Assembly: GCF_003991225.1 (NCBI RefSeq)
Contig: NZ_JTFC01000041.1
Span: 1-64,000, forward strand
Source of the DNA: Candidatus Kurthia intestinigallinarum
Lineage (GTDB): Bacteria; Bacillota; Bacilli; Bacillales_A; Planococcaceae
Direction: 5' to 3'
Length of the DNA: 64,000 nucleotides
Numbering within the stretch: position 1 is the stretch's first letter; every line of letters begins with the position of its first letter. Position numbers and translations under genes: made by a program. The notes under the pieces were generated by a model. It was given only the letters and a program-made list of their open reading frames with translations, was not told the DNA's origin and ran no database searches. Of this stretch, positions 14,951-32,644 are shown piece after piece.

Positions 14951-15006
14951 GTAATTAGTTATTAATTCATTCTAACTATCCATTAATATAATTACACATG
15001 TATATT

Positions 15007-15021
15007 TGTAAACATTTTTAC
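15007..15021 (+). repeat. Dispersed 15 bp motif TGTAAACATTTTTAC, copy 3
   Basis: Exact copy overlapping the stop codon (15018-15020) of the ribbon-helix-helix gene. Confidence 0.8.
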
Positions 15022-15305
15022 TTATTTAAAATACGATTCATTACTTCTACATCTTGACGCTGTTCATCATCTAATGACTTCATATATGAATCAATCATAT
15101 CATTTACTAATTCATTCGCACTTTTAAATTCACATACTTTCACTAAATTTGAAATGCGATTTTTCGTCTCTTCATCAACACGTAGCATCGCTGCTTTATG
15201 TTGAACAGATTTTACACTTTTAATTTCTTCACTTACTTCATCCTTATTATATTTTAAATGATCAGGTAATGCTCGATCATGACGTAATAATGATTTTTTT
15301 GCCAT
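15018..15305 (-). CDS. Ribbon-helix-helix partition partner of ParA
   Basis: A 95-residue basic protein. The N-terminal about 35 residues are flexible (AKKSLLRHDRALPDHLKYNK). Then comes KAAMLRVDEETKNRISNLVKVCEFKSANELVNDMIDSYM, a strand plus two helices typical of MetJ/Arc (ribbon-helix-helix) proteins. In type Ib partition systems (ParG, omega, ParR-like) such a protein binds the centromere and stimulates ParA. It begins one or four nt beyond the parA stop (TAATGATG), with AGGAGG inside the parA end, so the two are translationally coupled. The second ATG (15303-15305) has the better spacing. Confidence 0.85.
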   Translation of the reverse strand: MAKKSLLRHDRALPDHLKYNKDEVSEEIKSVKSVQHKAAMLRVDEETKNRISNLVKVCEFKSANELVNDMIDSYMKSLDDEQRQDVEVMNRILNK

Positions 15306-15307
15306 CA

Positions 15308-16129
15308 TTAATCCTCCTCAATTTCCACAATACGTTTAATAAACTCATCGACAATTTCATCATACAAATTATGTACACGGTGATCATGCATATCATCATT
15401 TGTAATCCCTACTGAGTTAAAACGTTTAATACGCTCCATTGTTTTCACACGGTGCTCAAAAAGATTTTCTTCACCAAAAATAGCAATTGCATTTTGCATC
15501 GTTGCTTGTTCTACACGCGAATCTGCTTTTAAAATTACCGGTAAAATACCAACAATCTCTAATTGTGCTTTATCTTCATCTAGTAGATCTTGTAAATAAT
15601 TAATAAATACTTCTGCACCATCTAATGATGCTTCCTGCGTTTGTAAAACCAATACGACATAATCAGTTGCTGCAAGAGCTGCATCTGTAATATCTGAAAT
15701 AGTCGGCGGAACATCAATTAAAATAAAATCATACTCGTCTTGAATTGATTTTAATAATTCACGGAAGTAGAAAATTCGTTCACGCTCAGCCTGGTCTGTC
15801 ATACCCGGAAATTTCTTTTGTAAGAATTTGGGGTATAAATGGAATGTTGGCGTATTGGGAATTAAATCTAGATTATCGTGAATCGTAAAAATTGTTGTAG
15901 CTAAATCGCCAGCTTTTACACCATCTAACATATAATTTGAAATAACTGGTGTTTCCTCACGTTCAGTCATATACGTTTTTAATAAAAATGTTGTCGCATT
16001 TGCTTGTGGATCTTTATCAACAACTAACACTTTATAACCTTGTTTTGCAAGTGTATATGCGAAAAGGACAGCATTTGTTGTTTTTCCTGTACCGCCTTTA
16101 AAGTTTGCAAACGTAATAATTCTTGTCAC
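15308..16129 (-). CDS. parA: ParA-type partition ATPase
   Basis: A 273-residue deviant-Walker ATPase: KGGTGKTT at residues 11-18 with the signature K11, the A' motif VVDKDPQAN (about 36-44) and Walker B DFILIDVPP. There is no N-terminal DNA-binding domain, as in type Ib plasmid ParA and Soj. It should move plasmid or replicon copies over the nucleoid with its RHH partner encoded just downstream. The start is GTG at 16127-16129 with AAGGAGGG upstream. The promoter region (TATAAT at 16162-16167) carries two direct repeats AAAATAGTAAA, the second fused to a copy of the 15 bp motif, and a parS lies 90 bp further upstream. Confidence 0.93.
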   Translation of the reverse strand: MTRIITFANFKGGTGKTTNAVLFAYTLAKQGYKVLVVDKDPQANATTFLLKTYMTEREETPVISNYMLDGVKAGDLATTIFTIHDNLDLIPNTPTFHLYPKFLQKKFPGMTDQAERERIFYFRELLKSIQDEYDFILIDVPPTISDITDAALAATDYVVLVLQTQEASLDGAEVFINYLQDLLDEDKAQLEIVGILPVILKADSRVEQATMQNAIAIFGEENLFEHRVKTMERIKRFNSVGITNDDMHDHRVHNLYDEIVDEFIKRIVEIEED

Positions 16130-16161
16130 TAAAAACCCTCCTTATACTATAGTTGTTATTT

Positions 16162-16198
16162 ATTATACATGAAAATAGTAAATAAATAAAATAGTAAA
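16162..16198 (-). promoter_or_regulatory. parA promoter with direct repeats
   Basis: TATAAT at 16162-16167 on the minus strand. AAAATAGTAAA occurs at 16172-16182 and 16188-16198, 16 bp apart, where the -35 should be. The second copy merges into the 15 bp motif. This suggests autorepression by the ParA/RHH pair. Confidence 0.5.
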
Positions 16199-16208
16199 AA
16201 TGTTTACA
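16194..16208 (-). repeat. Dispersed 15 bp motif TGTAAACATTTTTAC, copy 4
   Basis: Exact copy on the minus strand directly upstream of the parA promoter, where type Ib partition centromeres usually lie. Confidence 0.85.
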
Positions 16209-16219
16209 TGATTACATAT

Positions 16220-16253
16220 TTAAATGAATGTTTCACGTGGAACATTCATTTAA
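16220..16253. promoter_or_regulatory. parS site (Spo0J/ParB binding) in a 34 bp palindrome
   Basis: TGTTTCACGTGGAACA (16229-16244) is a perfect match, on the other strand, to the bacterial chromosomal parS consensus TGTTNCACGTGAAACA. The symmetry continues outward through ATTCATTTAA on the right and its complement on the left, giving 17 bp arms with a single mismatch. No chromosomal-type ParB is encoded here, so host Spo0J would be the binder. Confidence 0.9.
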
Positions 16254-16320
16254 ACTGTTTCTACTAATCTTTTTTCTCCCGCATAAAATGAAGCATGCCT
16301 TATGCAACTTAACTTACTCT

Positions 16321-16464
16321 AAAAAAGAGGCTGGGACAAAACACGTCATGTTCCTTTTTTAGCGTTCGCAACGAAAAACCGGAACCGCGCCACCGCGCAA
16401 TTCCGGTTTTTCTTATGCTCATATGAACGGTTGTTTGTATACATATGTCCCAGCCTCTTTTTTA
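16321..16464. repeat. GAGGCTGGGACA-type intergenic repeat, copy B
   Basis: The best-preserved copy: arms AAAAAAGAGGCTGGGACA and TGTCCCAGCCTCTTTTTT are perfect inverted repeats, with an inner CCGGAA...TTCCGG hairpin. It lies between parS and the luciferase-like gene. Confidence 0.9.
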
Positions 16465-16473
16465 TTTCAGCTT

Positions 16474-17469
16474 TTAATCAATAAGTGCTTCCGCTAATAA
16501 ACGATAACTTTCTAATCGATGTTCAAAAGTAGATTGATTTGAATTAATCATAGCTTCATCAAAACCATATAAGTGTTGGTCTGCTAGCAATTGTTCAGCT
16601 ACTTGTTCTTTAGTACCTACTAAATGTAATTTACGGTTTTGTTCAATTGTGGCTAAGTCCATTTCAGACAATGGATAATTTTGAGCTTCTTCTGGCGTAA
16701 GTGCTTGTTGCGGTTCACCACGCATCAACTGTAGTCTAGAGATATCAATTGATTTCGCACGGTATTCTGCTTCCTCTTTTGTATCAGCTACTGTTGCCGC
16801 ATAACTAACAATAATTTGAGGCTCTTTCATAAAATCAGATGGAATAAATCGTTCGCGGTATAAATCAAAAATCTCCTTTGTTGCTTGCCCATTAAAAAAT
16901 TGTGCAAATGAATAACCTACACCGTAATCTGCAGCTTTTGCTGCACTTTGTCCAGTAGAGCCTAGTAACCACATACTAGCTAATGGAACTTTAGCTGGTG
17001 TTGTTATTACATTTGTATATGCTTGATCATCGGCTCTTTCTCCTGCCATCAATTGCTGGATAGCCATTAATTTATTATATTGTTCATCTACAAAAGGTCG
17101 CTTCCCTTGTGCCAAAGCATACGTTGCTGCATAGTCTCCGCCCGGAGCACGACCTAAACCTAAGTCAACTCTCCCTGGCGCAAAAGCACTTAACGTATTA
17201 AACTGCTCCGCAATCTTCAGTGCAGAATAATGCATCATCATGATGCCACCAGTTCCTACATGAATACGATTTGTTTGTGCTGCAATATATGTTGCGGTAA
17301 TTTCTGGTGCGCTACTTGCTAATGTACGTGTGTTATGATGTTCTGCCAACCAGAAACGCTCATAGCCTAGGTCATCTGCATGCTTCGCTAAAGCTACACT
17401 ATTATGTAGCGCCTGTTGTGCCGTCATTCCCTTAGCAATAGGGATTTGATCTAGTATGCTTAATTTCAT
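16474..17469 (-). CDS. Luciferase-like (LLM class) flavin-dependent monooxygenase
   Basis: A 331-residue LLM-class oxidoreductase. N-terminal MKLSILDQIPI, the RFWLAEHHNT segment, VGTGGIMMMHYSALKIAEQF and PGRVDLGLGRAPGGD are the hallmark flavin-binding-barrel motifs of the MsnO8-like group. It probably uses reduced FMN and oxygen on an unidentified substrate. AGAAGG precedes the ATG. It lies between the partition and Rep genes but on its own transcript and is likely cargo. The length is normal for the group. Confidence 0.9.
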   Translation of the reverse strand: MKLSILDQIPIAKGMTAQQALHNSVALAKHADDLGYERFWLAEHHNTRTLASSAPEITATYIAAQTNRIHVGTGGIMMMHYSALKIAEQFNTLSAFAPGRVDLGLGRAPGGDYAATYALAQGKRPFVDEQYNKLMAIQQLMAGERADDQAYTNVITTPAKVPLASMWLLGSTGQSAAKAADYGVGYSFAQFFNGQATKEIFDLYRERFIPSDFMKEPQIIVSYAATVADTKEEAEYRAKSIDISRLQLMRGEPQQALTPEEAQNYPLSEMDLATIEQNRKLHLVGTKEQVAEQLLADQHLYGFDEAMINSNQSTFEHRLESYRLLAEALID

Positions 17470-17571
17470 ATTATGACCTTCTTTCTACTTTCACAAGATA
17501 TCTCTATACTAGCAATTCTTATTTCATTTTCCTATAAATTTGCCTACATTTAAAACTCTATATTATAGAAG

Positions 17572-17597
17572 AAACTCCGTTCAAACGAACGGAGTTT
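17572..17597 (-). terminator. Hairpin after the Rep gene
   Basis: A 10 bp stem AAACTCCGTT/AACGGAGTTT with a 6-nt loop; the minus-strand tail is T-rich (TTTCTTCT). A likely terminator of rep. Confidence 0.65.
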
Positions 17598-17600
17598 ACT

Positions 17601-17615
17601 TGTAAACATTTTTAC
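17601..17615 (+). repeat. Dispersed 15 bp motif TGTAAACATTTTTAC, copy 5
   Basis: Exact copy 3 bp beyond the Rep stop codon, followed by TTATTA as in copy 3. Confidence 0.8.
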
Positions 17616-17618
17616 TTA

Positions 17619-19433
17619 TTAACTATTATGATTCATTTGTACAAGTGAGAACCATTTTTCACAATAAGCTTCTAATGGCTTCCTATTTTTTATTGAAATC
17701 TTTTTCGGTGGATTTTTTAAATACCGATGTAATGTACTGTAGGAAACATTCGCCTCTGCTGCTGCCACCTTAATCGTAATACTTCGTTCTTCAATAATAA
17801 ATGCTACTTTCTCCATTAAAGATAATTCTTCGACTTCTTCAACGGGCTCATGCGGAACATCAATTACTTTAGAAGCTAATTTCAATTCTGCAATACGTTT
17901 GTTTTCTACAACAAGTTGATCTGGGGGCGTGATAGAAATATCTAGTTTTTCCCACACATGTAAATACCATAATCGTTTTGCCGTTTCAACTTCTTCAAAT
18001 GGCTCTGTATACTTCCAAGATTTAATCACTTCATCATTTAGTAAATCATCTAGCACTCTTTCTACACGCTCACGCAAACGTGCCCCGTGTACACTATTTT
18101 TCCCAAAATCCATAATTTCAATTAGATGTCCTACACGGAAGGTTGATGCCTCTGAATTACGTTGGTTTTTCCATTCCGAATTTAGAAAGCGCACTAACCG
18201 CTTATGCTGACGATGTTTATAATAATTGTATTGAAATACCTTATAATCTAAATAGGCAAATGCTTGGTCATTATGAATTAACAATCGGTCGATTAAAGGT
18301 GAGGGTTTAATGGTCACTGAATAAATCCCTTTTGCTTTTTTTGTTTTTTTGTCATATGCCATCTCAATTGAGCCTATTTGGAATAATGGATGGAAATCTG
18401 CAAATTCATAATTTTGGCGGTCAATATCTTCTGTTTCTGGGTTGATAACAATGAAATCATCATTATCCATCGCAATCCAAACAGATGCAAGTGTCGCAAC
18501 ACGCTGCATAATATCAAACCGCTCTTTTTCTCGTACACGGAATGACTTTTCATAAGGGTCTTCAAATTTTAATCGTAATGCCTGGTCACTGTCAAAATGA
18601 ATATAGCCATAATCATTTTTAGGCTGTTTCATCCAAGAAAATGCAATTAAATCAAATAAGTCAGCAGATAGTTCATCTAAAGCGGAATTCGTTGATTCTA
18701 AGAGTGAAAACCAAATACGTTGTTTTTCTAATGTATCCGCTGGTAATCGCTGGATTTCTTCATCTGTACGAATTTCCGCAGTCCCTTGCTTCACACCATC
18801 TACAACAATTTCCTTTTGTAAATCTCCATCTTCATTTTCCTCAAAATCTTTTTTTGTTACTAAATCACGCAAAGCTTGATAACTATGGCTAGAGTTTGTA
18901 ATTAAATATTCCTGATCTTTTATTGCCGATACAATTTGTTCAGTTCCAATATCTGGCATATCAAGTGATAACTGCTCCTCTGGCTTATGCTCAACAATTA
19001 TAAAATCATCAAAGGGCTTAGAAGGGGAGGGCTGTTTGACATTATCAAGTTCTTGTTTTTTTACTTTTGGTTCTTTTTTGGGTGGCGTAGTCTTTTTCTT
19101 TTTAACGGGTTTTGGCTTAATACCCTCTTCTAAAACTGGGCGCATAACTTGGTCTAATAAATGACGTTGAGTATCATCCGCTAGTTTTTCACGCAAATCA
19201 ATTTTTCGAAATGCCCGATTATCGAGCATGATGAGCTGCACAAAATTTAAAAGTTTTTGAAAACTTTTTGATGGCTTATAATCATCTTCTTGTTGCATCA
19301 TCATCACATCAGTTGTCCATTCTGCTACATGCTCAAATTCGTCAATATATAACGGCTGTACCGCTTCACAAATTGCGAGTGGTTGTAAATCCTTCGTTAA
19401 ATATACATTATCAAGCATCGCTGAATAATCCAT
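17619..19433 (-). CDS. Probable replication initiator (Rep) protein
   Basis: A 604-residue protein I cannot place in a named Rep family by eye. It has an N-terminal helical region, a lysine/proline-rich linker (about 105-140, KPKPVKKKKTTPPKK), a central block (about 235-470, with FDLIAFSWM and repeated winged-helix-like segments such as YYKHRQHKRLVRFLNSEW) and a C-terminal helix-turn-helix (IKVAAAEANVSYSTLHRYLKN). The initiator role is inferred from its divergence from an iteron array and an AEP-primase gene and its proximity to parA. AAAGGAGG precedes the ATG at 19433 by 11 nt; an ATG nine codons upstream lacks a site. An iteron-derived inverted repeat in its promoter suggests autoregulation. 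Confidence 0.7.
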   Translation of the reverse strand: MDYSAMLDNVYLTKDLQPLAICEAVQPLYIDEFEHVAEWTTDVMMMQQEDDYKPSKSFQKLLNFVQLIMLDNRAFRKIDLREKLADDTQRHLLDQVMRPVLEEGIKPKPVKKKKTTPPKKEPKVKKQELDNVKQPSPSKPFDDFIIVEHKPEEQLSLDMPDIGTEQIVSAIKDQEYLITNSSHSYQALRDLVTKKDFEENEDGDLQKEIVVDGVKQGTAEIRTDEEIQRLPADTLEKQRIWFSLLESTNSALDELSADLFDLIAFSWMKQPKNDYGYIHFDSDQALRLKFEDPYEKSFRVREKERFDIMQRVATLASVWIAMDNDDFIVINPETEDIDRQNYEFADFHPLFQIGSIEMAYDKKTKKAKGIYSVTIKPSPLIDRLLIHNDQAFAYLDYKVFQYNYYKHRQHKRLVRFLNSEWKNQRNSEASTFRVGHLIEIMDFGKNSVHGARLRERVERVLDDLLNDEVIKSWKYTEPFEEVETAKRLWYLHVWEKLDISITPPDQLVVENKRIAELKLASKVIDVPHEPVEEVEELSLMEKVAFIIEERSITIKVAAAEANVSYSTLHRYLKNPPKKISIKNRKPLEAYCEKWFSLVQMNHNS

Positions 19434-19500
19434 AGGGGATACAGCCTCCTTTATTCTCATATTTATTAAAAGTATATCAAAACTCCATTGTAAAATCTTA

Positions 19501-20262
19501 TAATCTCATTTTTATGTAATATGTGCCCAATAAATTATCGGGCACATAAAATATCGATTAACCACTCTTATTGCAAGATGTGCCCAATACTTCTCCTTGT
19601 TTATCTACATAATCTCATTTTTATACCTCATCTACCCAATAAATTTAATTAATTGCTAAAGAAAGCCTGCTATATAAGCATTCTATTAAATATCATTATC
19701 GTGCATATTGTGCCCAATAAACTCTTTTTCTTATTAAATTTTATGTTTTTGCTCTATCTGCTTAATAAATAGCGGTTGTATCTACCCAATAAAGCGCTGA
19801 AAATCTCATTTTAAGTGTTGCATCTACCCAATAAAATATTCTGACAATTCTTGAACATACCGATTTATCAATGTTTTTCTATAATCTCATTTTTTACATG
19901 CAATCTCATTTTAAGTGTTGCATCTACCCAATAAATCAAAAAAATCAACTATTTTTATAAAAAAGATGCCTTTTATGTGCTATTTTGCTCTCACTTTTTT
20001 TTCACAAAAAGTGGATACACCCTATAAAATTTTTTTTGAGTTGCATCTACCCAATAAATTAAGCTATTTTTGCTGTTTTTTATTGTAAAACAATAAAAAA
20101 TGGTCTTTTATTCCATTAAAATTAGCGGTTGCATCTACCCAATAAATCATTTTAAGCGGTTGCATCTACCCAATAAATTTTTTGTTATATGTATAAAATC
20201 TTTTATTGACAACTCAAATCGGCATTTTTTATATAAACTAAAAATCTCAAAATCTCATTTTT
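19501..20262. other. Iteron-rich replication origin region
   Basis: A 960 bp gene-free region between divergent rep and primase genes. The 19 bp iteron GTTGCATCTACCCAATAAA occurs exactly or nearly so at 19629, 19772, 19817, 19917, 20040, 20125 and 20156. Shorter variants with TGCCCAATA are at 19521, 19578 and 19704, and decayed ones are near 19751 and 20010. A second repeat, AATCTCATTTT, occurs at 19502, 19611, 19801, 19882, 19901 and 20251. AT-rich tracts separate them. All full iterons point the same way. This is the architecture of an iteron-controlled theta origin. Confidence 0.88.
19521..19547 (-). promoter_or_regulatory. Inverted iteron half-sites at the rep promoter
   Basis: ATGTGCCC (19521-19528) and GGGCACAT (19540-19547) form an 8 bp inverted repeat built from the iteron core. 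It is about 90 bp upstream of the rep start. Inverted iteron halves at the rep promoter are a common autorepression site for dimeric initiators. Confidence 0.6.
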
Positions 20263-20306
20263 GCGGTAGTATGTTGCACACTTTGACAACTGAATCACTG
20301 TTCAAA

Positions 20307-20337
20307 AAACGCTGTAACACTTGATATGACAGCGTTT
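20307..20337. other. Hairpin between the origin and the primase gene
   Basis: Perfect 9 bp arms AAACGCTGT and ACAGCGTTT around a 13-nt loop. No T tract. A candidate single-strand initiation structure or operator for the primase gene. Confidence 0.5.
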
Positions 20338-20423
20338 ATCACGGTTTCAAAAAATGAGATAGTGTAAAAAGTAACCTTTTTTTTCGCTTATAATAATTTA
20401 ACAATAGCGAGAGGAGGATACCT

Positions 20424-21911
20424 ATGCAATTTCATTTTGAAGATTTTATTAATACACTCTTTCATGATAGCTTACGAACAGCACAAAATATGGAAAAAAC
20501 ACCAAATCGACAAGGCGGTATTTTTGCCGTTAAACAAAAGGAACATTTGCAAACAGCTTACGGAGTACAAGGCGATATTATTACATCGAAAAAACAATTA
20601 TGTTCACGTGTAAATAACTACTCACATTTTACGCCGAATCCTTATTTACAATATCGCTATACGAATCGCTATAAAGAATATGTAAAGGGCTTCGAAGAAC
20701 AAAACCTTTTACAAGTGAATACATTTGTAATCGATATTGATACAAAAAATTATTCTCCTCAAGAAATTTTACTTGCTTGCTTGGACGATAGTATTGGTAC
20801 ACCGACACTGTTACTAGAATCGACAAGAGGCTATCAACTTTATTTTATTTTAAGTAAGCCGCTTCATTTGAAAAAAGGAGGGGTTGGATTAGCTGTGGCT
20901 AAAAAAATAGCTGCACAACTCAAGAAAAGTCTTACTTGTGTAGGTGCAGATATCTTTTGCAATGATTTTGGTTTTTTCCGCATGCCTACAAAAAAAAATG
21001 TGCTGTGGGTAGATTTGACACATACATATGATATTTCTCAATTAATCAATTGGTCGCAACAGCAAGAGGATGACACAATCTCATTTTTCGTGTCAAACAA
21101 CTCACAACGCCAATCCTTAACACAACAAGAGTGGTTTAAAGCGCTGCTACAAACACCTGATATTCATGGTGGAAAAGGAATTTTAGGACGTAATAATACA
21201 TTATTCACACTGGCGCTAGCATGCTATGCTGATCAAATCTCATTTTCAGATGCAATGTGCACATTAGGCTCATTTAATGCACAGCTTCTCAAACCATTGT
21301 CTGCACGTGAATTTCATGCCATTATGAAATCTGCCTATAGTGGGCGTTACCAAGGTCCTGAGCGTTTTTATATTGAGCAATTAACAGAAGCGTATACAAA
21401 CGTAAAACCGTATGTAAACTATAAAGGCTGGTATAAGCATAAAAAAGAACGTGCAGCTCGTACGCGTAGCCATTTAAGTGAATGGGAGCAAGATCTAATC
21501 ACATATATCGAAGCTCAACCACATCAAGATGGATTTTTATGGACAACTCAGCGAGAGCTATGTAAAACTCTAGGAATCCCTAAAAGTACTTTAAACAAGC
21601 TTCTAAAGCATTCTAACATTGTGTTAACGCGTACTTTTGGTAAAGGCCGTAATGCGATGACTGGTTTTACAACACGCACTCTTTTTAATGCTGAAATGGT
21701 ATCACTCTATTTAAGCAAGAAAAAACATACTAAAAAACAATACCTAGCTTTTTTAACAACATACATCCATGCCGTAGAAGCATGCGATGTTTCTTTAGCA
21801 CGCACATCATTTATTGAAGAATTACAGCAACTAAAAATGAATTTAATAAATGGTCCACAATGCCATTACATATCTATATCTAGGCATAGAAAAAGCACAG
21901 CAATTACATAA
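20424..21911 (+). CDS. AEP-primase-like plasmid replication protein
   Basis: A 495-residue protein. The N-terminal half resembles archaeo-eukaryotic primases: NTFVIDIDTKNYS gives an acidic DxD pair (about residues 102-106), STRGYQLYFILSKPL fits the second motif, and DFGFFRMPT follows. The middle part (about 235-325, RNNTLFTLALACYADQISFSDAM) looks like a PriCT-type helical domain. The C-terminal 120 residues hold a helix-turn-helix-like segment (TQRELCKTLGIPKSTLNKLLK). It probably primes replication at the adjacent origin. GAGAGGAGG precedes the ATG. Copies of AATCTCATTTT occur inside the reading frame at 21078 and 21237. The stop codon lies within the terminator stem-loop. Confidence 0.78.
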   Translation: MQFHFEDFINTLFHDSLRTAQNMEKTPNRQGGIFAVKQKEHLQTAYGVQGDIITSKKQLCSRVNNYSHFTPNPYLQYRYTNRYKEYVKGFEEQNLLQVNTFVIDIDTKNYSPQEILLACLDDSIGTPTLLLESTRGYQLYFILSKPLHLKKGGVGLAVAKKIAAQLKKSLTCVGADIFCNDFGFFRMPTKKNVLWVDLTHTYDISQLINWSQQQEDDTISFFVSNNSQRQSLTQQEWFKALLQTPDIHGGKGILGRNNTLFTLALACYADQISFSDAMCTLGSFNAQLLKPLSAREFHAIMKSAYSGRYQGPERFYIEQLTEAYTNVKPYVNYKGWYKHKKERAARTRSHLSEWEQDLITYIEAQPHQDGFLWTTQRELCKTLGIPKSTLNKLLKHSNIVLTRTFGKGRNAMTGFTTRTLFNAEMVSLYLSKKKHTKKQYLAFLTTYIHAVEACDVSLARTSFIEELQQLKMNLINGPQCHYISISRHRKSTAIT

Positions 21912-21926
21912 TCACTGTGCTTAAAA
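21893..21926 (+). terminator. Bidirectional terminator between primase and telA
   Basis: Stem AAGCACAG/CTGTGCTT with a 14-nt loop that includes the primase stop codon; AAAAA on one side, TTAAAAG on the other. Confidence 0.6.
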
Positions 21927-21933
21927 GAATTAT

Positions 21934-23013
21934 TTATTGACCACTAAATACATCTTTTGCTTCATTGCGAATTTCTTCTAGACGTTTACGGTCTTGTTGA
22001 CGTTGGATAACTTGTTCATCTTTTACCTGTTTGTATTCATCAATACCTTTAGTAATGGTATCCCACATATCTTCAATGGTATCCATTTTAATGCTTGATG
22101 TACCGGTTCTGCGTGCAATATCTACACTTTGATTCATAATGTCTTTTGTTGTTTCACGGAGCATTTCATTAGCTCGATCTTCAAAGGCGTTAATTGAATC
22201 TGCATGAAGCTTTTGACGTTTGGCATTGACAGCATTAATGATGCCCATTTTAAAGATTGGAATCGTTGTTACAAAGGCGCTATTAATTTTAGCGATTAAA
22301 TCATTATTACCACGTTGAATGGTTTTAATTTGAGGAGCTGCAATAACAGCAACCATACGTGCTTTTTCTAAGTCGTCAACTTTACGGTCTAGAATTTCTT
22401 CGGCTGTACGAAGATTTTCTAGTTGAATACGTGCCATTTGATTACCAGCAGCTACTTGTGTTTCAAGTTTAGGAATATCTTGTTGACGTAGTTCTTCTAG
22501 CTTCATTTCAGCTGCAACAGCATATTTTTCAAGATTTAAGTAGTATTGAATATCTTCTTGATAAAGGCCTTCTAAATCGACGTTGTTTTTCTTTAATTCA
22601 TCTTCAATAATCATAAATTGCTGATGAATTTTATCAATTTCACTACCAAGTGATGTGTATTTAGCAAATAAAGAATCAATGCTTTTCTTAGCGCGATTAA
22701 ATAGTTTACCAAAGAAGCTAGGCTCTTTCAAAATCTCATCTTTATCAAATTTGTTCATGACTTTTTCAAGTTGTTTTAGTAAATCACTTGAATCATCTAG
22801 TTTTGATAATGTCATAGAATGTAGAATTTTATCTGTAAAACGTGATAGCTCCTGAGACGGCTCTTTACCTAAAGTTAAGATATCGTTAGCATCACGCCAA
22901 TCAACTGCTTTGATAATAGATGCTACCTCTGGATCGTTTCGAAGTGCTAAACGTGTTTCATTAGCTGTTTGCTCTGTTAGACCTTCTTTTTGTAATGGAA
23001 TTAACTCTGACAT
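21934..23013 (-). CDS. telA: TelA/YceH-family toxic-anion resistance protein
   Basis: A 359-residue, almost entirely helical and coiled-coil protein. Typical TelA segments are DLLKQLEKVMNKFDKDE, LGSEIDKIHQQF, the long central coil and IAAPQIKTIQRGNNDLIAKINSAF. There is no signal peptide or TM helix. In Bacillus subtilis the homologue YceH lies at the end of the yceCDEFGHI operon. Here it follows the YceG-like gene by 12 nt, so the two are co-transcribed. Its biochemical role is unknown, although it is linked to tellurite and cell-envelope stress. The start has AAGGAGG. Confidence 0.92.
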   Translation of the reverse strand: MSELIPLQKEGLTEQTANETRLALRNDPEVASIIKAVDWRDANDILTLGKEPSQELSRFTDKILHSMTLSKLDDSSDLLKQLEKVMNKFDKDEILKEPSFFGKLFNRAKKSIDSLFAKYTSLGSEIDKIHQQFMIIEDELKKNNVDLEGLYQEDIQYYLNLEKYAVAAEMKLEELRQQDIPKLETQVAAGNQMARIQLENLRTAEEILDRKVDDLEKARMVAVIAAPQIKTIQRGNNDLIAKINSAFVTTIPIFKMGIINAVNAKRQKLHADSINAFEDRANEMLRETTKDIMNQSVDIARRTGTSSIKMDTIEDMWDTITKGIDEYKQVKDEQVIQRQQDRKRLEEIRNEAKDVFSGQ

Positions 23014-23025
23014 ATAATTTCCTCC

Positions 23026-24645
23026 TTAGTCAAAAAAACGTTTACGAATTTTTTGAATAAATGATTGTGTTTTAGTAGGTTGTTCATAGTGGACATCAAA
23101 GACCATTTCTTCGAGTCGGTGAATGGTATAAATAGATGGTTCTAAGTAATTTTCAATATCTTGTTTACCGGTTGGGGTATAGAAAATAATATCAAAGCCA
23201 AAACGGTTTAAGAAACTAAATAATATGGCGTCTGCTCGGGTTAAATGCCCAAGTGATTCATCATAGAAAACAACGATTTTAGGTAGCTGTTGAGCGTAAT
23301 CAAAGCTTTGCATAAAGCGTAGAATCTCTTTTGGTACCATCGATAATTGCTTTAATGTGGTAATGGCAAGGTCGCGCTCTTTTTCGCCATTTATTTTTTG
23401 AATGCTTGGGTTCTCACAGCAATCAATAATAATACGTGCAATGGCTACTTGAATTTCAGGTGAGAGCTCTTTATATTGCCACCAACTTGTCCCCATCATT
23501 CGCTCACTATCTAAATTTCCTCCGACAAGGCTCTTATCGTAATGAAATTGGAAATTGGCTTTTGATTCTTTTACATATGGGAATTGCTGAATAAGTAAAG
23601 TGTTAGGTAGTTCAACAAGCGCATGCATCTTTTCCCAGTAATCCTGCTTATCACGTGACATCCCGTTTACTTTTGCAAAAATATTGGGAATGTAGATAGT
23701 TGGTTTTTGTGCTTTAAAGCCTGGGCGCATCATAGCGGGCTCTTTAGCATAAATGAAAATGTCATCATAGGTATGTTGCAACATGACATTATGTGGTTCA
23801 TAGTTTTGATACTGCCAGGGGCGATAAACACCATGTTCGTCCTCTATAAGACGTTCTAGCTGCTGTGTAGAACGATAACCGACCGTTGCTTGAACTTCTC
23901 TTATTTGCGTTGGAAACGGTTGCATAGGAGCTGTATCACCGTAACGATATACGGTTGATTCTTCATTATGTGGATCAAGTGGTTGAAAATCATCTTTTCC
24001 GGCTGGATGGAAGAGTAAAACATCACAGCCAAGCCACATTAATAATAATAAAAAATATCGCTGGCTTTGCGTCGTATCACCATACCACACGACTTTTGGA
24101 AAGGGTGTTTGTGGTGTAGCATCTTTCATCCACACAATCCAGTGATTTTTCATCCATTTGACTAAGTCGATTAAGAAGCGACGAAAATCATTAGATAGTA
24201 ATCCTTGTGCTTGCTGTTGTTGAAATGTTTTAATGACTCGAATCAGTGTCGTCTGTAAATGACGATTCATTTGTGGATCTTTGTGTTGTGGGATAAGTTT
24301 CGCACCATACATCATCGCAACGAGCCGATTAATTGATAAGCCTTTAGGTAATTCTTTATGTTGTTGCAAAATGTTTTGAAGGAGTTGGAAATCTTCATTT
24401 TGTATTTGTTTATTCAACTCTTCACTCAATACATGGACATCACTCGCTGTATGCCATTCGTACAACGTGTTAAAGTACTCGACATCGTCCAATGGAACAC
24501 CGAGAACGCGTACAGCAACGCGCTCAAATGTGAGATTTTGCTCGGTTAGACTATAGCGAGGGCGCTCTGTGCTAGCTAATAGGAAATAATTAAGCCAGTC
24601 ATCAGTGTCTTTCCATGGAAGAGGTGTAATCGTTAGTTGATTCAT
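23026..24645 (-). CDS. yceG: YceG-like tellurium/stress-cluster protein
   Basis: A 539-residue soluble protein matching the YceG-type component of TerD/TelA stress clusters. It is tryptophan- and proline-rich at the start (LTITPLPWKDTDDWLNYFLL), contains WYGDTTQSQRYFLLLLMWLGCDVLLFHPAGKDDF, and near the end has VFYDESLGHLTRADAILFSFLNRFGFDIIFYTPTG. The two repeated 'hydrophobic strand then D/F' units resemble a duplicated nucleotide-binding or glycosyltransferase-like fold, but this is only an impression. AAAGGGGG precedes the ATG. telA follows. The TerC homologue YceF, present between terD and yceG in B. subtilis, is absent here. Confidence 0.85.
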   Translation of the reverse strand: MNQLTITPLPWKDTDDWLNYFLLASTERPRYSLTEQNLTFERVAVRVLGVPLDDVEYFNTLYEWHTASDVHVLSEELNKQIQNEDFQLLQNILQQHKELPKGLSINRLVAMMYGAKLIPQHKDPQMNRHLQTTLIRVIKTFQQQQAQGLLSNDFRRFLIDLVKWMKNHWIVWMKDATPQTPFPKVVWYGDTTQSQRYFLLLLMWLGCDVLLFHPAGKDDFQPLDPHNEESTVYRYGDTAPMQPFPTQIREVQATVGYRSTQQLERLIEDEHGVYRPWQYQNYEPHNVMLQHTYDDIFIYAKEPAMMRPGFKAQKPTIYIPNIFAKVNGMSRDKQDYWEKMHALVELPNTLLIQQFPYVKESKANFQFHYDKSLVGGNLDSERMMGTSWWQYKELSPEIQVAIARIIIDCCENPSIQKINGEKERDLAITTLKQLSMVPKEILRFMQSFDYAQQLPKIVVFYDESLGHLTRADAILFSFLNRFGFDIIFYTPTGKQDIENYLEPSIYTIHRLEEMVFDVHYEQPTKTQSFIQKIRKRFFD

Positions 24646-24704
24646 TGTTTCAGGCCCCCTTTATTGCTTCTTCTACTGTACCACATACGGATAGCTTTAA
24701 TCTT

Positions 24705-24795
24705 TTTATTGGGTAGACACCGCATTTTTATGAGAATAGTGGAAATAGAATCCAAATAGTGTGCACATCGCGCATAAAAATGAGATTTTGAGATT
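24705..24795 (-). repeat. Outlying iteron and origin repeat in the yceG leader
   Basis: On the minus strand TGCGGTGTCTACCCAATAAA (24705-24724) is an iteron with one internal change. AATCTCAAAATCTCATTTTT (24776-24795) is an exact copy of the 20 bp at 20243-20262. They sit 4.5 kb from the origin, in the inverted orientation, between the TerD terminator and the yceG start. Confidence 0.85.
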
Positions 24796-24813
24796 CTACC
24801 TATGTAAAGACAA

Positions 24814-24839
24814 AGAAACCGCGCGGTTGCGCGGTTTCT
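24814..24839 (-). terminator. Terminator after the terD gene
   Basis: An 11 bp perfect stem AGAAACCGCGC/GCGCGGTTTCT with loop GGTT. T-rich tail on the minus strand. Confidence 0.7.
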
Positions 24840-24882
24840 CAGTGTGTTATGCGCAGACAATATGTCCTATGCGTTTGGTTAA

Positions 24883-25464
24883 TTAGTTTACATCTAGACC
24901 GTAATCAGTTGCTAGTGCAGCTAATCCACCTTGGTAGCCAGCGCCTACAGCATTGAATTTCCATTCGCTACCGTGGCGGTAAAGTTCACCTACAACGATT
25001 GCTGTTTCGATTGAGAAATCTTCACCTAAGTCATAGCGAATTAATTCTTCGTTTGAAGCAGCGTCTACGATACGGATAAATGAGTTTGAAACCATACCGA
25101 AGTTTTGACCACGAGATTCTGCATCGTGAATTGTTACAGTGAATGCGATGCGGCTAATATTTTGTGGGACATTGCTAAGTGCCACTTTTACTGTTTCATC
25201 GTCGCCATCGCCGTCACCAGTTAAGTTATCGCCAGAGTGTTCTACTGAACCATTACCACCAACTGTATTGTTATAGAAGATAAAGTTAGCAGGATCGTCT
25301 ACTTTGCTTGCATCGTTAAGTAAGAAGACAGAAGAATCTAAATCAAAATCTTGTCCGCCATCATATTTATTTGTATCCCAGCCTAAACCTACTACGATGT
25401 TTGATAACCCAGGATTACCTTTTGTTAAATCTACTTTTTGACCTTTTTGTAATGAAATACCCAT
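24883..25464 (-). CDS. terD: TerD-family protein
   Basis: A 193-residue TerD-domain protein. [20 protein letters not shown], the Asp-rich [11 protein letters not shown] and [14 protein letters not shown] supply the two calcium-binding sites of the family, and [10 protein letters not shown] and [18 protein letters not shown] are conserved C-terminal strands. Family members respond to tellurite, membrane and envelope stress and bind calcium in the cytoplasm. It is 16 nt downstream of a paralogue and ends in a terminator. AAGGAGG precedes the start. Confidence 0.95.
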
Positions 25465-25480
25465 AATATTTGTTTCCTCC

Positions 25481-26092
25481 TTATTGATAACTTGCTACAA
25501 CAGCGCTTAAGTTAGCATCTGTTGTGCCATTGCCAAGTGCAGCAAATTTCCACTCTGTGCCATGACGATAAATTTCACCTGTCACTAGAGTCGTTTTACC
25601 AGAATAATCATCTGATAGGTTGTAACGAATTAATTCTTCATGGTTGTTTGCATTAAATACGCGGATATATGCGTTTTGAATCATGCCGAAATGTTGTTTT
25701 CGATTGACAGCATCATAGATGTTTACAACGAATACAAGGCGATTGAATTCTGCAGGGATCGCTTGTAAATTGATTGAAATTACTTCATCGTCGCCGTCAC
25801 CAGCACCTGTTAAGTTGTCACCTGAATGTTGAACGGAACCATCTTTACTACGTAAGTTTCCGAAAAAGACAACATCCTCTTTAGATTTAACATGATCGTC
25901 TTTTAACATAATAACAGAAGCGTCACAGTCGACATTGCTTCCCTTATTACCGCCGCCAAATAAACCACCTAGAAAACCACCGCTGCTTTTATTTTCAGCA
26001 GGGTCCCAACCTAGGCCTACTTGTACTTTGCTAAGACCTGCATTGCCTTTTGTTAAGTCAACACGTTGGCCTTTTTGAAGATTGATACCCAT
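25481..26092 (-). CDS. TerD-family protein with glycine-rich insertion
   Basis: A 203-residue TerD paralogue: [43 protein letters not shown] and [15 protein letters not shown]. Compared with its neighbour it has an insertion of about 15 residues ([18 protein letters not shown]) just before the first calcium site, as in YceC-type members. A GTG four codons upstream is a possible start, but the ATG at 26092 aligns with the paralogue and has GGTGAAG upstream. It is the first gene of the stress operon and has an ECF-type promoter. Confidence 0.93.
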
Positions 26093-26153
26093 AAAAAACT
26101 TCACCGTCCTTAATGAAATGGAAATGTGCTAGCCTAAATACTAGTCTCTTACT

Positions 26154-26181
26154 TATACGACTTAGCTTCAAGAAAGTTTCA
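26154..26181 (-). promoter_or_regulatory. ECF sigma (SigW/SigM-type) promoter of the TerD operon
   Basis: On the minus strand TGAAAC (26176-26181), a 16-nt spacer and CGTATA (26154-26159). This is an exact match to the TGAAAC-N16-CGTA pattern of B. subtilis SigW/SigM promoters; the yceC operon there is also ECF-controlled. Confidence 0.85.
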
Positions 26182-26243
26182 TTTTTTAAAAAATAGTTAA
26201 AGAAATGAAGAACATTCAATCGAATACCGTTGTTTTGTCCATC

Positions 26244-26280
26244 AAAAAACACTTCCAAAGTTTTAATACCTTAGAAGTGT
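26244..26280 (-). terminator. Terminator of the 75-residue ORF
   Basis: ACACTTC pairs with GAAGTGT, followed by six T on the minus strand; 40 bp after the stop at 26323. Confidence 0.7.
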
Positions 26281-26322
26281 CTTTCTTTTGTTATATTGTC
26301 ACTGTTTTTAGGTTAGTCCAGA

Positions 26323-26550
26323 CTAGCGATTATTTTTATGTTGTGCAGCGCGTAATGCTTGTTCTAAAAAATCATATTGTGCAGTAGTTTGTAAGAGTGC
26401 CCCATTTGGCTCATACGGGTTACGGTCAAGCTCTTTTAATAGTCGAAATTTTTCCTCAGGTGAAATTGGTAGATCGTCTAAATCGCGATGAAATGCGCTT
26501 AGCACATGAATGGTTTCACTAAAATCAAGTACAAATCCATCATAAGGCAT
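26323..26550 (-). CDS. Small protein of unknown function
   Basis: A 75-residue soluble protein (MPYDGFVLDFSETIHVLSAFHRDLDDLPISPEEKFRLLKEL and onward), acidic then basic at the C-terminus, mostly helical. The start at 26550 has AAGGGAG; a further in-frame ATG 33 nt upstream lacks a site and would run into the motif-bearing spacer. I recognise no family. Confidence 0.65.
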   Translation of the reverse strand: MPYDGFVLDFSETIHVLSAFHRDLDDLPISPEEKFRLLKELDRNPYEPNGALLQTTAQYDFLEQALRAAQHKNNR

Positions 26551-26567
26551 TGAACTCCCTTCTTTCT

Positions 26568-26582
26568 GTAAAAATGTAAACA
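26568..26582 (-). repeat. Degenerate copy of the 15 bp dispersed motif
   Basis: On the minus strand TGTTTACATTTTTAC, two mismatches to TGTAAACATTTTTAC and identical to the overlapping site at 14850-14864. It is the rightmost member seen, so the family spans about 8.0-26.6 kb. Confidence 0.55.
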
Positions 26583-26634
26583 AGTTTATATGTAGATGCG
26601 ATAGCTAAAACGCTATTGCATAAGAAAATGAAAA

Positions 26635-26662
26635 CAGGAATCGCGTAATGACGCCATTCCTG
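26635..26662 (-). terminator. Terminator of the 151-residue ORF
   Basis: CAGGAATCGCG pairs with CGCCATTCCTG (one mismatch); TTTTC follows on the minus strand. Confidence 0.7.
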
Positions 26663-26691
26663 CTGTATTTATTCGCCAAGAATTGTGTTGT

Positions 26692-27147
26692 TCAGCATGA
26701 TTTTTTGGTGCTATTTTGTAGACGAATTTGCTCGCGGCGGAATGCGTACATCATCTCGTTGCGGATAAAGTGACGCAGTGTAGTCGCTTCATTCACAATA
26801 TTTGCAATTGATTCTGTTTCTGATACCGCTAGAGCGATTGATACTTGATAAAGTGGTGTGCCATCGTCAGCTGTCGTTTTATAATGTGCTAAAACTTGGC
26901 AATGCTTTTCAAGTGTTTCTAAGTAAGCTTGCTCGTAAAGAGGAAGAAGCGTGAGATCTTCCTGTTCGGGCATGAGTAATCGTTCATCCATGTATAACAC
27001 CGCATTGTGTGCGAGGTCGCGTTGAATCGCTAGATCATCTGCGCATGTATAAAGCTTAAACTCTTCTAAATCATGCAAACGCCAAGCATTCAGCTCATTC
27101 GCTAAAACAAGGTGTTCAAAGTACATTTCTAAATCTAAAGAACCCAT
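26692..27147 (-). CDS. Helical protein of unknown function
   Basis: A 151-residue acidic, helical protein (MGSLDLEMYFEHLVLANELNAWRL and onward), with a strand-rich segment in the middle (YQVSIALAVSE) and the ending FRREQIRLQNSTKKSC. AAGGAGGG precedes the ATG. No TM helix or signal. I recognise no family. An AGTCAG...CTGACT hairpin followed by TTTTT at 27188-27210 lies just upstream on the same strand and could be an attenuator or a terminator remnant. Confidence 0.7.
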   Translation of the reverse strand: MGSLDLEMYFEHLVLANELNAWRLHDLEEFKLYTCADDLAIQRDLAHNAVLYMDERLLMPEQEDLTLLPLYEQAYLETLEKHCQVLAHYKTTADDGTPLYQVSIALAVSETESIANIVNEATTLRHFIRNEMMYAFRREQIRLQNSTKKSC

Positions 27148-27187
27148 CCAAACCCTCCTTCATTAGTCATTTTTTATTCATAGAAAA

Positions 27188-27210
27188 AGTCAGCTGGAAT
27201 CCAACTGACT
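27188..27210 (-). terminator. Hairpin with T tract upstream of the 151-residue ORF
   Basis: AGTCAG and CTGACT, plus an inner TGG/CCA pair. On the minus strand TTTTTC follows. It lies in the 5' leader of the gene at 26692-27147, with no minus-strand gene further upstream. Confidence 0.4.
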
Positions 27211-27392
27211 ATACATTGACAAATGCGTTAACAATTATTTAATTCTAACGATTTTTGATAAGAATCGCAAGTGATTACAATGACAATATTTGTTGATAAA
27301 GTTTCTTGGCTGTTTCCAATTTAAAAAAATTGTGCTGGGCCGCACGATAGCGCCTGCGTTGTTCGAGCGTTTATGAATGATGCTACATAAGA

Positions 27393-27443
27393 GTTAACTT
27401 AAAAGTAAAAATTGTTGACTAAAATAAATGGATGGATTATAGT
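27393..27443 (+). promoter_or_regulatory. bioY promoter with BirA-type operator
   Basis: Sigma-A promoter TTGACT (27415-27420), 17-nt spacer, TATAGT (27438-27443). GTTAAC (27393-27398) and GTTGAC (27414-27419), 15 nt apart, form the inverted repeat expected for the biotin repressor BirA, and the second half overlaps the -35 box. Biotin-dependent repression is therefore likely. Confidence 0.75.
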
Positions 27444-27476
27444 AAAAAACGTTCATAGTTGAGAGGGGGGAAAGAG

Positions 27477-28064
27477 ATGACGACATACACAAGGGTACGT
27501 GCACGATTTACTGCGTATGATGTTGTGTATTGTGGCATGTTTGCGGCATTGATGATGATAGGGGCAAACATTACATCATTTATGCCATTTATGGTAGTCG
27601 GAGGGGTGCCCATTACATTGCAAGCATTTTTTGCAATATTAGCAGGACTTGTGCTCGGTAGTAAACGCGGGGCGATTGCGGTAGCTGTTTATGCGTGTGT
27701 CGGCTTAGCAGGGGCACCTGTTTTTGCACGTTTTAGCGGCGGCATTAGTCAATTATTGAGTCCTACGTTTGGCTTTATTATTGTTTTTATTTTGTCGGCC
27801 TACATCGCTGGAAAAATGATTGAAGTACGTTCAACAAAAGCAATGTATGTTGCAGCAGGACTTGTCGCCATGATGATTAGTTATTTACTTGGTACAAATT
27901 GGTTGTATGCCGCCTATAAATTATGGGCTGCTGCACCGGAAGGTTTTAGTTATTGGATGGCGTGGGCGTGGATGTTGCCGCCGCTACCGAAAGATATTGT
28001 GTTGGCTATACTAGCTGGTTTATTTGCATTTCGATTACGACACGTTATAAAGGTGGGAAACTAA
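27477..28064 (+). CDS. bioY: Biotin transporter substrate-binding subunit BioY
   Basis: A 195-residue integral membrane protein with about six helices and the BioY signatures GGVPITLQAFFAILAGLVLGSKRG and ARFSGGISQLLSPTFGF. It is the S-component that binds biotin for an ECF-type importer. No EcfA or EcfT gene is adjacent, so it would share the general module or work alone. The start at 27477 follows GAGAGGGGGGAAAG. It is co-transcribed with bioB, 17 nt downstream. Confidence 0.93.
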   Translation: MTTYTRVRARFTAYDVVYCGMFAALMMIGANITSFMPFMVVGGVPITLQAFFAILAGLVLGSKRGAIAVAVYACVGLAGAPVFARFSGGISQLLSPTFGFIIVFILSAYIAGKMIEVRSTKAMYVAAGLVAMMISYLLGTNWLYAAYKLWAAAPEGFSYWMAWAWMLPPLPKDIVLAILAGLFAFRLRHVIKVGN

Positions 28065-28080
28065 AAAGGTGGGAAACTAA
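28049..28080 (+). repeat. Perfect 16 bp tandem duplication at the bioY-bioB junction
   Basis: AAAGGTGGGAAACTAA occurs twice in a row. The first copy holds the bioY stop codon and the second supplies the ribosome-binding site of bioB. Confidence 0.95.
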
Positions 28081-28081
28081 C

Positions 28082-29077
28082 ATGAATTATCAACAATTAG
28101 CACAACGAGTTATCGATGGTTATGTGATAACAGATGAAGAAGCATTGGCTATTTTAGAAAGTCCAGATACCGAGCTATTAGCTGTATTAGATGCTGCCTA
28201 TCGTATCCGCTACCATTATTATGGGAATAAAGTAAAGCTGAATATGATTATTAATACGAAATCGGGCTTATGTCCAGAAAATTGTGGGTACTGTTCGCAA
28301 TCGATTGTATCAACAGCACCGATTGAAAAATACCCAATGATGAAACAACAAGAAATTATTGATGGGGCGAATCGCGCGGCATCACTACAAGTTGGGACCT
28401 ATTGTATTGTGGCAAGTGGCCGTGGTCCGCGTAATCAAGAAATTGATATTGTAGTAGATTCAGTGAAGGAAATTAAGGAGCACCATCCTGAAATGACAGT
28501 CTGCGCGTGTTTAGGAATTTTAAAGCCTGAACAAGCACAACGGTTAAAAGAGGCTGGAGTAGATCGCTATAATCATAATATTAATACGTCTGCTCGTAAT
28601 CATACGAATATTACAACATCACATACATACGACGATCGTGTACAAACGGTTGAACGTGCAAAAGAAGCCGGAATTTCGCCATGTTCAGGTGTCATTGTTG
28701 GAATGAAGGAAACAAAGCAAGATGTGGTGGATATGGCACGTAGTTTGCATGCATTAGATGCAGACTCGATTCCAGTTAACTTTTTAAATGCCATTGACGG
28801 TACGCCACTAGAAGGCATAAACGAACTGAACCCACGTTACTGTTTAAAAGTATTAGCATTATTCCGCTTCATTAATCCGACGAAAGAGATTCGCGTTTCG
28901 GGTGGTCGAGAAGTTAATTTAGGGCATATGCAACCACTCGGTTTATACCCGGCTAATTCAATTTTCCTTGGTGATTATTTAACGACAGATGGCCAACCTG
29001 GCGATGATGATAAAAAAATGTTAGAGCAATTAGGGTTTGAAATTGATTTAACGCCATTACAGCAAGCAAGCTGTTAA
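28082..29077 (+). CDS. bioB: Biotin synthase BioB
   Basis: A 331-residue radical-SAM enzyme that inserts sulfur into dethiobiotin. The cluster motif C64-PEN-C68-GY-C71 and the later NHNINTSARNH and IRVSGGREVNLG segments are diagnostic. The length is normal. The start at 28082 is preferred over upstream in-frame codons inside bioY because of GGTGGG. No bioADF or bioW is nearby, so the bioY-bioB pair implies use of imported biotin or dethiobiotin, with the remaining pathway elsewhere or missing. Confidence 0.96.
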   Translation: MNYQQLAQRVIDGYVITDEEALAILESPDTELLAVLDAAYRIRYHYYGNKVKLNMIINTKSGLCPENCGYCSQSIVSTAPIEKYPMMKQQEIIDGANRAASLQVGTYCIVASGRGPRNQEIDIVVDSVKEIKEHHPEMTVCACLGILKPEQAQRLKEAGVDRYNHNINTSARNHTNITTSHTYDDRVQTVERAKEAGISPCSGVIVGMKETKQDVVDMARSLHALDADSIPVNFLNAIDGTPLEGINELNPRYCLKVLALFRFINPTKEIRVSGGREVNLGHMQPLGLYPANSIFLGDYLTTDGQPGDDDKKMLEQLGFEIDLTPLQQASC

Positions 29078-29150
29078 AAAAATTTGCACTTATGGTAAAC
29101 CTTTTTTATAATATAGTTAACACAAAACTCCCCGTTTAGTGAAAAGGTAG

Positions 29151-29290
29151 AAAGAGGCTGGGACATAAGTGTAAAAATACTATCTCAGATGAGCATAAGA
29201 AAAACCGGAATCGTGCTGTGGCGCGGTTCTGGTTTTTTGTGGCGAACGCTAAAAAAGGAACATGAACTGTTTTGTCCCGGCCTCTTTTTT
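29151..29290. repeat. GAGGCTGGGACA-type intergenic repeat, copy C
   Basis: AAAGAGGCTGGGACATAAG and TTTTGTCCCGGCCTCTTTTTT arms, with an inner hairpin at 29200-29237. It is in the opposite orientation to copies A, B and E and lies downstream of bioB, where it probably terminates transcription. Confidence 0.88.
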
Positions 29291-29332
29291 CATTAGACGA
29301 AAAGTGGGTATAGTAATTATGAGGTGATTACT

Positions 29333-29599
29333 ATGGAATTTGAATTGACAGAAAAAGGTTATGAATTATTCCAGCAAGGGAAAAGTGTTGCGCGTATTGA
29401 ATGGTATGTTGAGGATAACGTGATGCAAATGACTGGAACGTATACAGATGAAGTGTTGCGTGGGCAAGGTATCGCTGGAAAATTATTGAATGAGGCGGTA
29501 GAGTATGCGCGCGCCCACGATTACAAGATGAAGGCGATTTGTCCATATGTTGTGAAGAAATTTGAGGATAGCGCATTTTATAATGATGTGAAAATTTAA
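29333..29599 (+). CDS. GNAT-like acetyltransferase (YjdJ/N-acetyltransferase-like)
   Basis: An 88-residue minimal GNAT domain with a strand pair (ARIEWYVEDNVMQMTGTYT), the acetyl-CoA loop RGQGIAGKLL and the ending AICPYVVKKFEDSAFYNDV. This matches the short YjdJ-type family (about 90 residues), which often acts with unknown substrates. The ATG at 29333 has GAGGTGA upstream. Confidence 0.88.
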   Translation: MEFELTEKGYELFQQGKSVARIEWYVEDNVMQMTGTYTDEVLRGQGIAGKLLNEAVEYARAHDYKMKAICPYVVKKFEDSAFYNDVKI

Positions 29600-29626
29600 T
29601 CGTAAAAAGAATAATGAGGACATGAA

Positions 29627-29662: not shown

Positions 29663-29668
29663 AATCGG

Positions 29669-31478: not shown

Positions 31479-31479
31479 G

Positions 31480-32583: not shown

Positions 32584-32644
32584 AACACCACCTCCTACAA
32601 ATAGCATATAGTTTCAACGTGAAATTTACTAGCGAGTAATTGTA

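Follow-up and report, generated by a model that had tools for sequence, protein, structure and literature searches.

Two repeat families at a putative megaplasmid origin of Candidatus Kurthia intestinigallinarum follow the Rep protein rather than the neighboring primase

We analyzed a window of 64,000 nucleotides from Candidatus Kurthia intestinigallinarum (contig C186 of genome G000), in which two divergent genes border a 963-bp intergenic region at 19461-20423. The rep gene, on the minus strand at 17619..19433, encodes a putative initiator of 604 aa counted from the ATG at 19433. Its reading frame is open to 19460 (613 aa), and because the orthologs align from residues 5-10 of this longest ORF (start 19460) onward, the start at 19433 given in an earlier note on this DNA is plausible. 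On the plus strand, 20424..21911 encodes a primase-like protein of 495 aa with a PriCT_1 match (PF08708, E = 1.9e-08, 34.2 bits versus a cut-off of 21.1). Partition genes lie near rep on the minus strand at 15018..16129, comprising ParA (15308-16129) and a PrgO/DUF5388-like gene (15018-15308). The intergenic region itself contains a single ORF of 74 aa. C186 has no tRNA, and 68% of it aligns to one K. huakuii contig. A block at 25385-33759, starting in a TerD gene, matches K. huakuii C15 at 97.5% identity, whereas the other pieces longer than 1.5 kb shared with C15 show ~74-84% identity, and the block therefore looks recently transferred.

Two repeat families, iterons and shorter boxes, occupy the intergenic region. 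The 14-bp iteron core ATCTACCCAATAAA is present in seven exact copies, all on the plus strand (within 19625-19643, 19775-19793, 19817-19835, 19917-19935, 20040-20058, 20128-20146, and 20159-20177). Five degenerate copies with 2-4 mismatches lie on the same strand (within 19516-19534, 19573-19591, 19703-19721, 19751-19769, and 20010-20028), and one with 4 mismatches lies on the minus strand. The plus-strand array spans 19516..20177, and its motif family is also found in three Kurthia orthologs. The earlier note had counted at least seven 19 bp iterons; that number holds for the 14-bp core, whereas the full 19-mer GTTGCATCTACCCAATAAA occurs in five exact copies and one with 1 mismatch (search up to 3 mismatches; shuffle mean 0.01).

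The box AATCTCATTTT (reverse AAAATGAGATT) forms an array on both strands at 19502..20361. We recovered the six exact copies reported before, on the plus strand at 19502, 19611, 19802, 19883, 19902, and 20251, together with a reverse box with 1 mismatch that precedes the primase gene on the minus strand (20351). Two more exact plus-strand boxes reside inside the primase reading frame at 21077-21087 and 21236-21246; both had been noticed earlier, at positions (21078 and 21237) that were one base off. At ≤1 mismatch, the whole window contains 16 boxes compared with a shuffle mean of 5.83 (sd 1.99), and 0 of 100 shuffles reached 16. Within the 3.93-Mb genome, 9 of the 13 exact boxes fall at C186:19502-24787 and 8 of 8 exact copies of the iteron sequence CTACCCAATAAA at C186:19632-24716. 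This excess of boxes and the genome-wide clustering of both repeats within 5.3 kb exclude chance. The two independent repeat families of the earlier note are both present and specific to the replicon. In three Kurthia orthologs, conservation is 0.84 for boxes, 0.83 for iterons, and 0.59 for the remaining region. A DnaA-box scan of 19461-20423 returned no exact site and an Rfam search of 15000-26000 no match. Promoter-like sites in 19300-20600 were not above shuffles (5 versus 7.9), and we therefore assigned no promoters. A hairpin seen by eye (AAACGCTGT...ACAGCGTTTTTT, 20305-20340, minus strand, before the primase gene) is absent from the terminator scan.

Both repeats recur at a remote mini-site on the minus strand upstream of yceG (24705..24793), where a AATCTCAAAATCTCATTTTT element contains an exact reverse box (24777-24787) and one iteron core lies beside it (24705-24716). 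The element at 24.7 kb nearly duplicates the intergenic one at 20245. K. huakuii and K. massiliensis also carry the box element, and K. huakuii the adjacent iteron as well. In the K. massiliensis counterpart, the iteron is missing and a transposase-like coding sequence, identified by eye, follows the box element.

The impression that Rep fits no named family survived the profile searches that the earlier note had proposed for Rep and the primase, the latter being assigned to PriCT_1. Searches of Rep against Pfam, NCBIfam, and PHROGs gave no named initiator family, only general helix-turn-helix (HTH) models at the C-terminus. Profile-profile comparison with hhalign returned a probability of 0.3% for RepA_N (PF06970; positive control 100%) and of 0.5% for 13 Rep_3 (PF01051) proteins, two halves of which gave 99.9%. 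The whole genome G000 likewise has no RepA_N or Rep_3 match. In line with the suggestion that the replicon type may be undescribed, we recognized no description of it in the open-access papers searched, and the Rep family and its dual code appear undescribed within that body of papers.

Rep relatives are found in 28 PLSDB records, on plasmids of up to nearly 400 kb. Their hosts are mostly Peribacillus, Cytobacillus, and other Bacillaceae, with single records under the names Arthrobacter, Klebsiella, and Paludibaculum. Among sequenced genomes, relatives occur in 13 of 61 related genomes, in 14 of 261 from the order (E ≤ 1e-20), and in 7 of 398 from the class (E ≤ 1e-15). Scanning viral contigs with the Rep profile yielded 102 stretches with 0 confirmed relatives, and a phage collection gave no match. 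The window's genome contains four Rep matches, on C186, C24, and C57, plus a weak partial one on C187. In a published K. intestinigallinarum genome, three megaplasmids (502, 469, and 371 kb) accompany a 2.43-Mb chromosome (PMC12160564); C186, C24, and C57 presumably stand for megaplasmids like those three (371-502 kb). In the public sequence of K. senegalensis (L025, L039), an in-frame stop interrupts the orthologous Rep. On pYJ4A of Kurthia sp. YJT4 (L105), Rep (391 aa) and a primase gene, both shortened, adjoin ant(9)-Ia, and a full primase gene is located elsewhere on the plasmid.

We then compared repeats across this family by de novo repeat finding in 30 regions, 23 with Rep (the discovery loci) and 7 at primases without an adjacent Rep. 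All discovery loci but one (22 of 23) have two unrelated repeat families upstream of rep; in the exception, G001C24, the second family is weak, and the iteron has only 3 copies in the de novo scan of G025C7 and C. firmus. The general pattern is one of direct iterons mostly on one strand and of short boxes on one or both strands, which often consist of AAAATG followed by a variable end. Two families could be read by eye in ~16 of 21 held-out loci. They were not read in G438C30, MetaB218, or the distant G256, G260, and G099, the last three of which have no such HTH and no such repeats. As in iteron-controlled theta replicons, direct and replicon-specific repeats lie beside the gene of a plasmid-specific putative initiator.

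The three replicons of the window's genome carry three different iteron/box pairs, namely ATCTACCCAATAAA with AAAATGAGATT (window type, C186), CCACAAGTGTCGCTCG with TGAATAATT (C24), and GGACAAACCCGTGTA with AAATGCACCA (C57), and each box is kept in other Kurthia species. One host factor common to the three replicons therefore cannot read them. A further type, that of G021C2, pairs TCGGGAACTAGGTGTA with AAAATGAACCAC. We typed loci by exact 8-9-bp cores; allowing 1 mismatch confuses ATGCACCA with ATGAACCA. By these counts, another type's box never exceeds 2 copies in a Rep region, and 2 was also the highest count for eight core types in 1500 shuffled regions. The consensus sequences behind these types were read by eye, and the loci are related by descent.

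The primase has relatives in 1441 PLSDB records. The primase and Rep trees disagree; both repeats go with Rep. P. asahii has a Rep with 89% identity to the G021C2 protein, and its iteron and box are those of G021C2. Its primase shares 34% identity with that of G021C2, 63% with that of Peribacillus pB, and 55% with that of C. kochii, and belongs to the clade of the latter two. The P. asahii primase ORF contains 2 ATGCACCA boxes, the type of the Peribacillus pB/C. kochii clade, and 0 of its own type, which in this one case looks like the trace of a primase swap. Plasmids of C. firmus, B. badius, and P. simplex have Rep and both repeats, and no primase relative anywhere on the record. One weak BLASTP match aside, the protein of 370-385 aa that stands at the position of the primase gene in these three is unrelated to the primase. 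Conversely, among seven plasmids chosen for their primase, six lack a Rep relative and the seventh (pYJ4A) has the shortened one at another location; the seven upstream regions contain Rep-linked iterons or boxes in no more than single copies. These observations lend no support to the earlier suggestion of two binding proteins, for example Rep and the primase-like protein. The primase nevertheless probably takes part in priming here.

Some plasmids differ in what adjoins rep or the primase gene. Proteins of 370-385 aa without a Pfam match take the place of the primase gene in L079, L081, and L082, and have relatives in 17 PLSDB records. In L061, L064, L065, and L067, where no Rep lies beside the primase, AAAAGTRGAAA is repeated on both strands upstream of the primase gene, and Rep-linked iterons are absent.

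Partial Mantel tests at 14 loci separate the two proteins. Box similarity is associated with Rep when the primase is controlled for (r = 0.77, p = 0.0002), and shows no association with the primase when Rep is controlled for (r = -0.31, p = 1.0). The corresponding values for the iteron are 0.70 (p = 0.0002) and 0.03 (p = 0.40). The superseded 1-mismatch typing pointed in the same direction, with Rep links of 0.51 for the box and 0.70 for the iteron.

We next asked which parts of Rep carry these associations, aligning 40 Reps and using 26 loci. Near relatives (Khua15, Kmas4, G003C13, G005C3, G003C20, G192C2, and G310C17) and loci with no consensus pair set (Pfrig_BFRIG, G438C30, BacC02, MetaB218, and Barach) were left out, and Pasahii and Lcaps were dropped by the 85% filter. 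For the box, the association with the C-terminus given the middle part (0.51, p = 0.0008) exceeds that with the middle part given the C-terminus (0.19, p = 0.10). The iteron shows the opposite order, 0.34 (p = 0.0002) for the middle given the C-terminus and 0.18 (p = 0.04) for the C-terminus given the middle. Leaving out one locus at a time keeps this order; when each iteron type is represented by a single locus (n = 15), the contrasts become smaller (0.51, 0.31, 0.12, and 0.19). The division between the two parts is not sharp. Rep windows 420-471 and 460-511 are also associated with the box (0.43), and nearest neighbors chosen by the C-terminus or by the middle predict the box equally (0.86 each). 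In a three-part regression, the box is linked to the C-terminus (549-600; 0.48, p = 0.037) and to 381-520 (0.55, p = 0.052), and the iteron to 178-380 (p = 0.001), with a smaller link to 549-600 (0.33, p = 0.026). Iteron similarity follows Rep residues 178-380, and box similarity follows the C-terminal HTH and, less surely, residues 381-520.

The C-terminal HTH domain, which we propose as the box reader, spans residues 540-613 (17622..17843, minus strand), with its third helix at 574-582 (YSTLHRYLK). AlphaFold2 predicts a confident HTH fold for the C-terminal 74 residues (mean pLDDT 89.0); the full-length model, built from 3 sequences, reached a pLDDT of 33.5 and was not used. Foldseek relates the HTH to XRE-type HTH proteins (SinR) and restriction controller proteins, with a probability near 1 for the XRE type and no match at E ≤ 0.001 (best 0.042). 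HTH_3 is found in 11 of 14 Rep family members. Each of the nine discovery loci that carry ATGCACCA shows the helix HTTLSRY, across 4 iteron types. Of five box predictions written beforehand, four held: HTTLSRY loci in G067C65, G192C2, P. psychrosaccharolyticus, and Niallia all have ATGCACCA, although the C-terminal domain of G192C2 hardly differs from the L. capsici one. The fifth failed, as G083C56 (HSTLLRY) has AAAACGCACCACTT in place of the predicted ATGAACCA. HSTLSRY with a KRQNK tail goes with ATGCACCA in five loci, whereas HSTLSRY goes with AAGTTGCA in P. simplex and P. frigoritolerans BFRIG, the latter with another tail. The helix alone therefore does not fix the box.

Could a protein other than Rep read the boxes? 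If Rep read the iterons and the primase read the boxes through a C-terminal winged HTH, one could account for the over-representation of own-type boxes in primase ORFs (29 in 20 ORFs, 12 of which have at least one; shuffle mean 1.36, maximum 6; other-type boxes 4); the raw count in Rep ORFs is 8 in 21. Weak HTH matches near primase residues 360-395 and the short two-strand AAAAGTRGAAA family at the primase of four plasmids, three without a Rep relative and the fourth (pYJ4A) with its shortened one elsewhere, would fit as well. This division of labor is nonetheless unlikely in our judgment, as the link between box and primase is gone once Rep is given, the foreign primase of P. asahii sits beside the box of its own Rep, and three plasmids have boxes with no primase relative at all. 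In addition, primases with 65-68% identity to the L. capsici pFN9A and G025C7 proteins (61% for Sporosarcina) stand beside AAAAGTRGAAA and no ATGCACCA, and the reverse is also seen. Another plasmid regulator, either a small repressor or the ~370-aa divergent protein that replaces the primase, seems quite improbable as the box binder. Extra small genes, lying between rep and the primase gene or beside rep, in Niallia (a ribbon-helix-helix protein) and P. frigoritolerans CK6 speak for it. So does one weak BLASTP match, from a search of 26 sequences, between the Peribacillus pB primase and the B. badius 370-aa protein (25% over 186 aa, E = 2.4e-4). When the profiles of the 370-aa proteins and the primases are compared, however, the probability is 1.3%, the window's intergenic region offers no such gene beyond the 74-aa ORF, and box type associates with Rep segments.

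Two readings that involve neither a primase nor a regulator fare worse. That the boxes are a centromere read by the partition proteins would suit the nearby, replicon-specific partition genes (15018-16129), but ATGCACCA occurs beside ParM (L080, L083, L097), beside ParA relatives (L030, L032, L033, L036), and with neither ParM nor ParA detected in the stretch examined (L037, L060, L079, L098-L100), making a centromere highly improbable. We give just as little credence to unwinding or host-protein sites (A-tract DNA, DnaA-like sites, or sites for another host factor). The boxes are A/T-rich and many start with AAAATG, as such sites might, yet one genome has three different boxes on three replicons, each conserved in other Kurthia species, and 19461-20423 contains no exact DnaA box.

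With moderate confidence, we interpret the region as the origin of a theta-type iteron megaplasmid replicon whose single ~600-aa initiator would read two unrelated site families. The initiator role of Rep, its binding to the two families, the matching of its parts to the sites, and the function of the boxes are all inferred. The N-terminal half of the central part of Rep (~178-380) would read the long direct iterons, marking and opening the origin. The C-terminal HTH, possibly together with 381-520, would read the short boxes in the origin, the primase gene, and the distant mini-site, and the divergent primase, or its replacement, would make primers. The boxes may form a second, differently tuned set of Rep sites through the origin and beyond, serving control (titration, handcuffing, or repression of rep/primase promoters) or helping assembly. 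We think that control of initiation is their likeliest role, by analogy with RctB of Vibrio chromosome 2, with assembly and promoter repression as the alternatives.

A broader picture is offered only tentatively. These replicons could represent a widespread Bacillota plasmid family with a two-letter address, in which one initiator has two DNA-reading parts that evolve separately. Identity and incompatibility would then be set by a varied iteron code, and control by a box code that changes more slowly. Under this proposal, three megaplasmids with sister initiators might coexist in one cell, Rep-origin units might move past foreign primases, and the site with iteron and box ~4-5 kb away might act as a built-in titration switch.

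Among known systems, plasmids with Rep_3 initiators (PF01051) resemble this replicon in having direct iterons beside the initiator gene, but Rep has no PF01051 match. In R6K, F, and P1, which are of this class, the iterons are direct and adjoin the initiator gene, and the second sites are inverted half-iterons, whereas the boxes described here do not resemble iterons. The RepA_N plasmids of Gram-positive bacteria are similarly large and low-copy, with PrgP/PrgO-like partition genes (those here score below NCBIfam cut-offs). Their origins lie inside the rep gene, and neither Rep nor the whole G000 genome has a PF06970 match. The PriCT_1 plasmids of Enterococcus, Listeria, and Lactobacillus share a primase related to the 495-aa protein, yet 6 of the 7 sampled are without this Rep, and those sampled are without these iterons and Rep-linked boxes.

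If one initiator does read two codes, the family would supply many naturally occurring combinations of protein and site variants for probing the role of the second site family, and a means to ask how related megaplasmids stay compatible. To our knowledge, a second site family at an origin has so far been studied mainly in Vibrio chromosome 2. Its initiator RctB is the closest functional parallel to Rep, the likeness being two dissimilar site families in one origin together with remote sites, although RctB is not among the 12 PDB chain matches to the Rep profile (E ≤ 1). V. cholerae ori2 is served by one large initiator with several DNA-binding parts, which recognizes 11/12-mer iterons and dissimilar 29/39-mers (PMC6090056, PMC5395669) and is titrated by sites distant from ori2 (PMC6090056). 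Compared with ori2, the boxes here are ~10 bp rather than 39, rep is divergent from the primase gene, and the hosts are Bacillota. Because RctB already exemplifies one initiator with two site families, the arrangement proposed for Rep is not a new principle.
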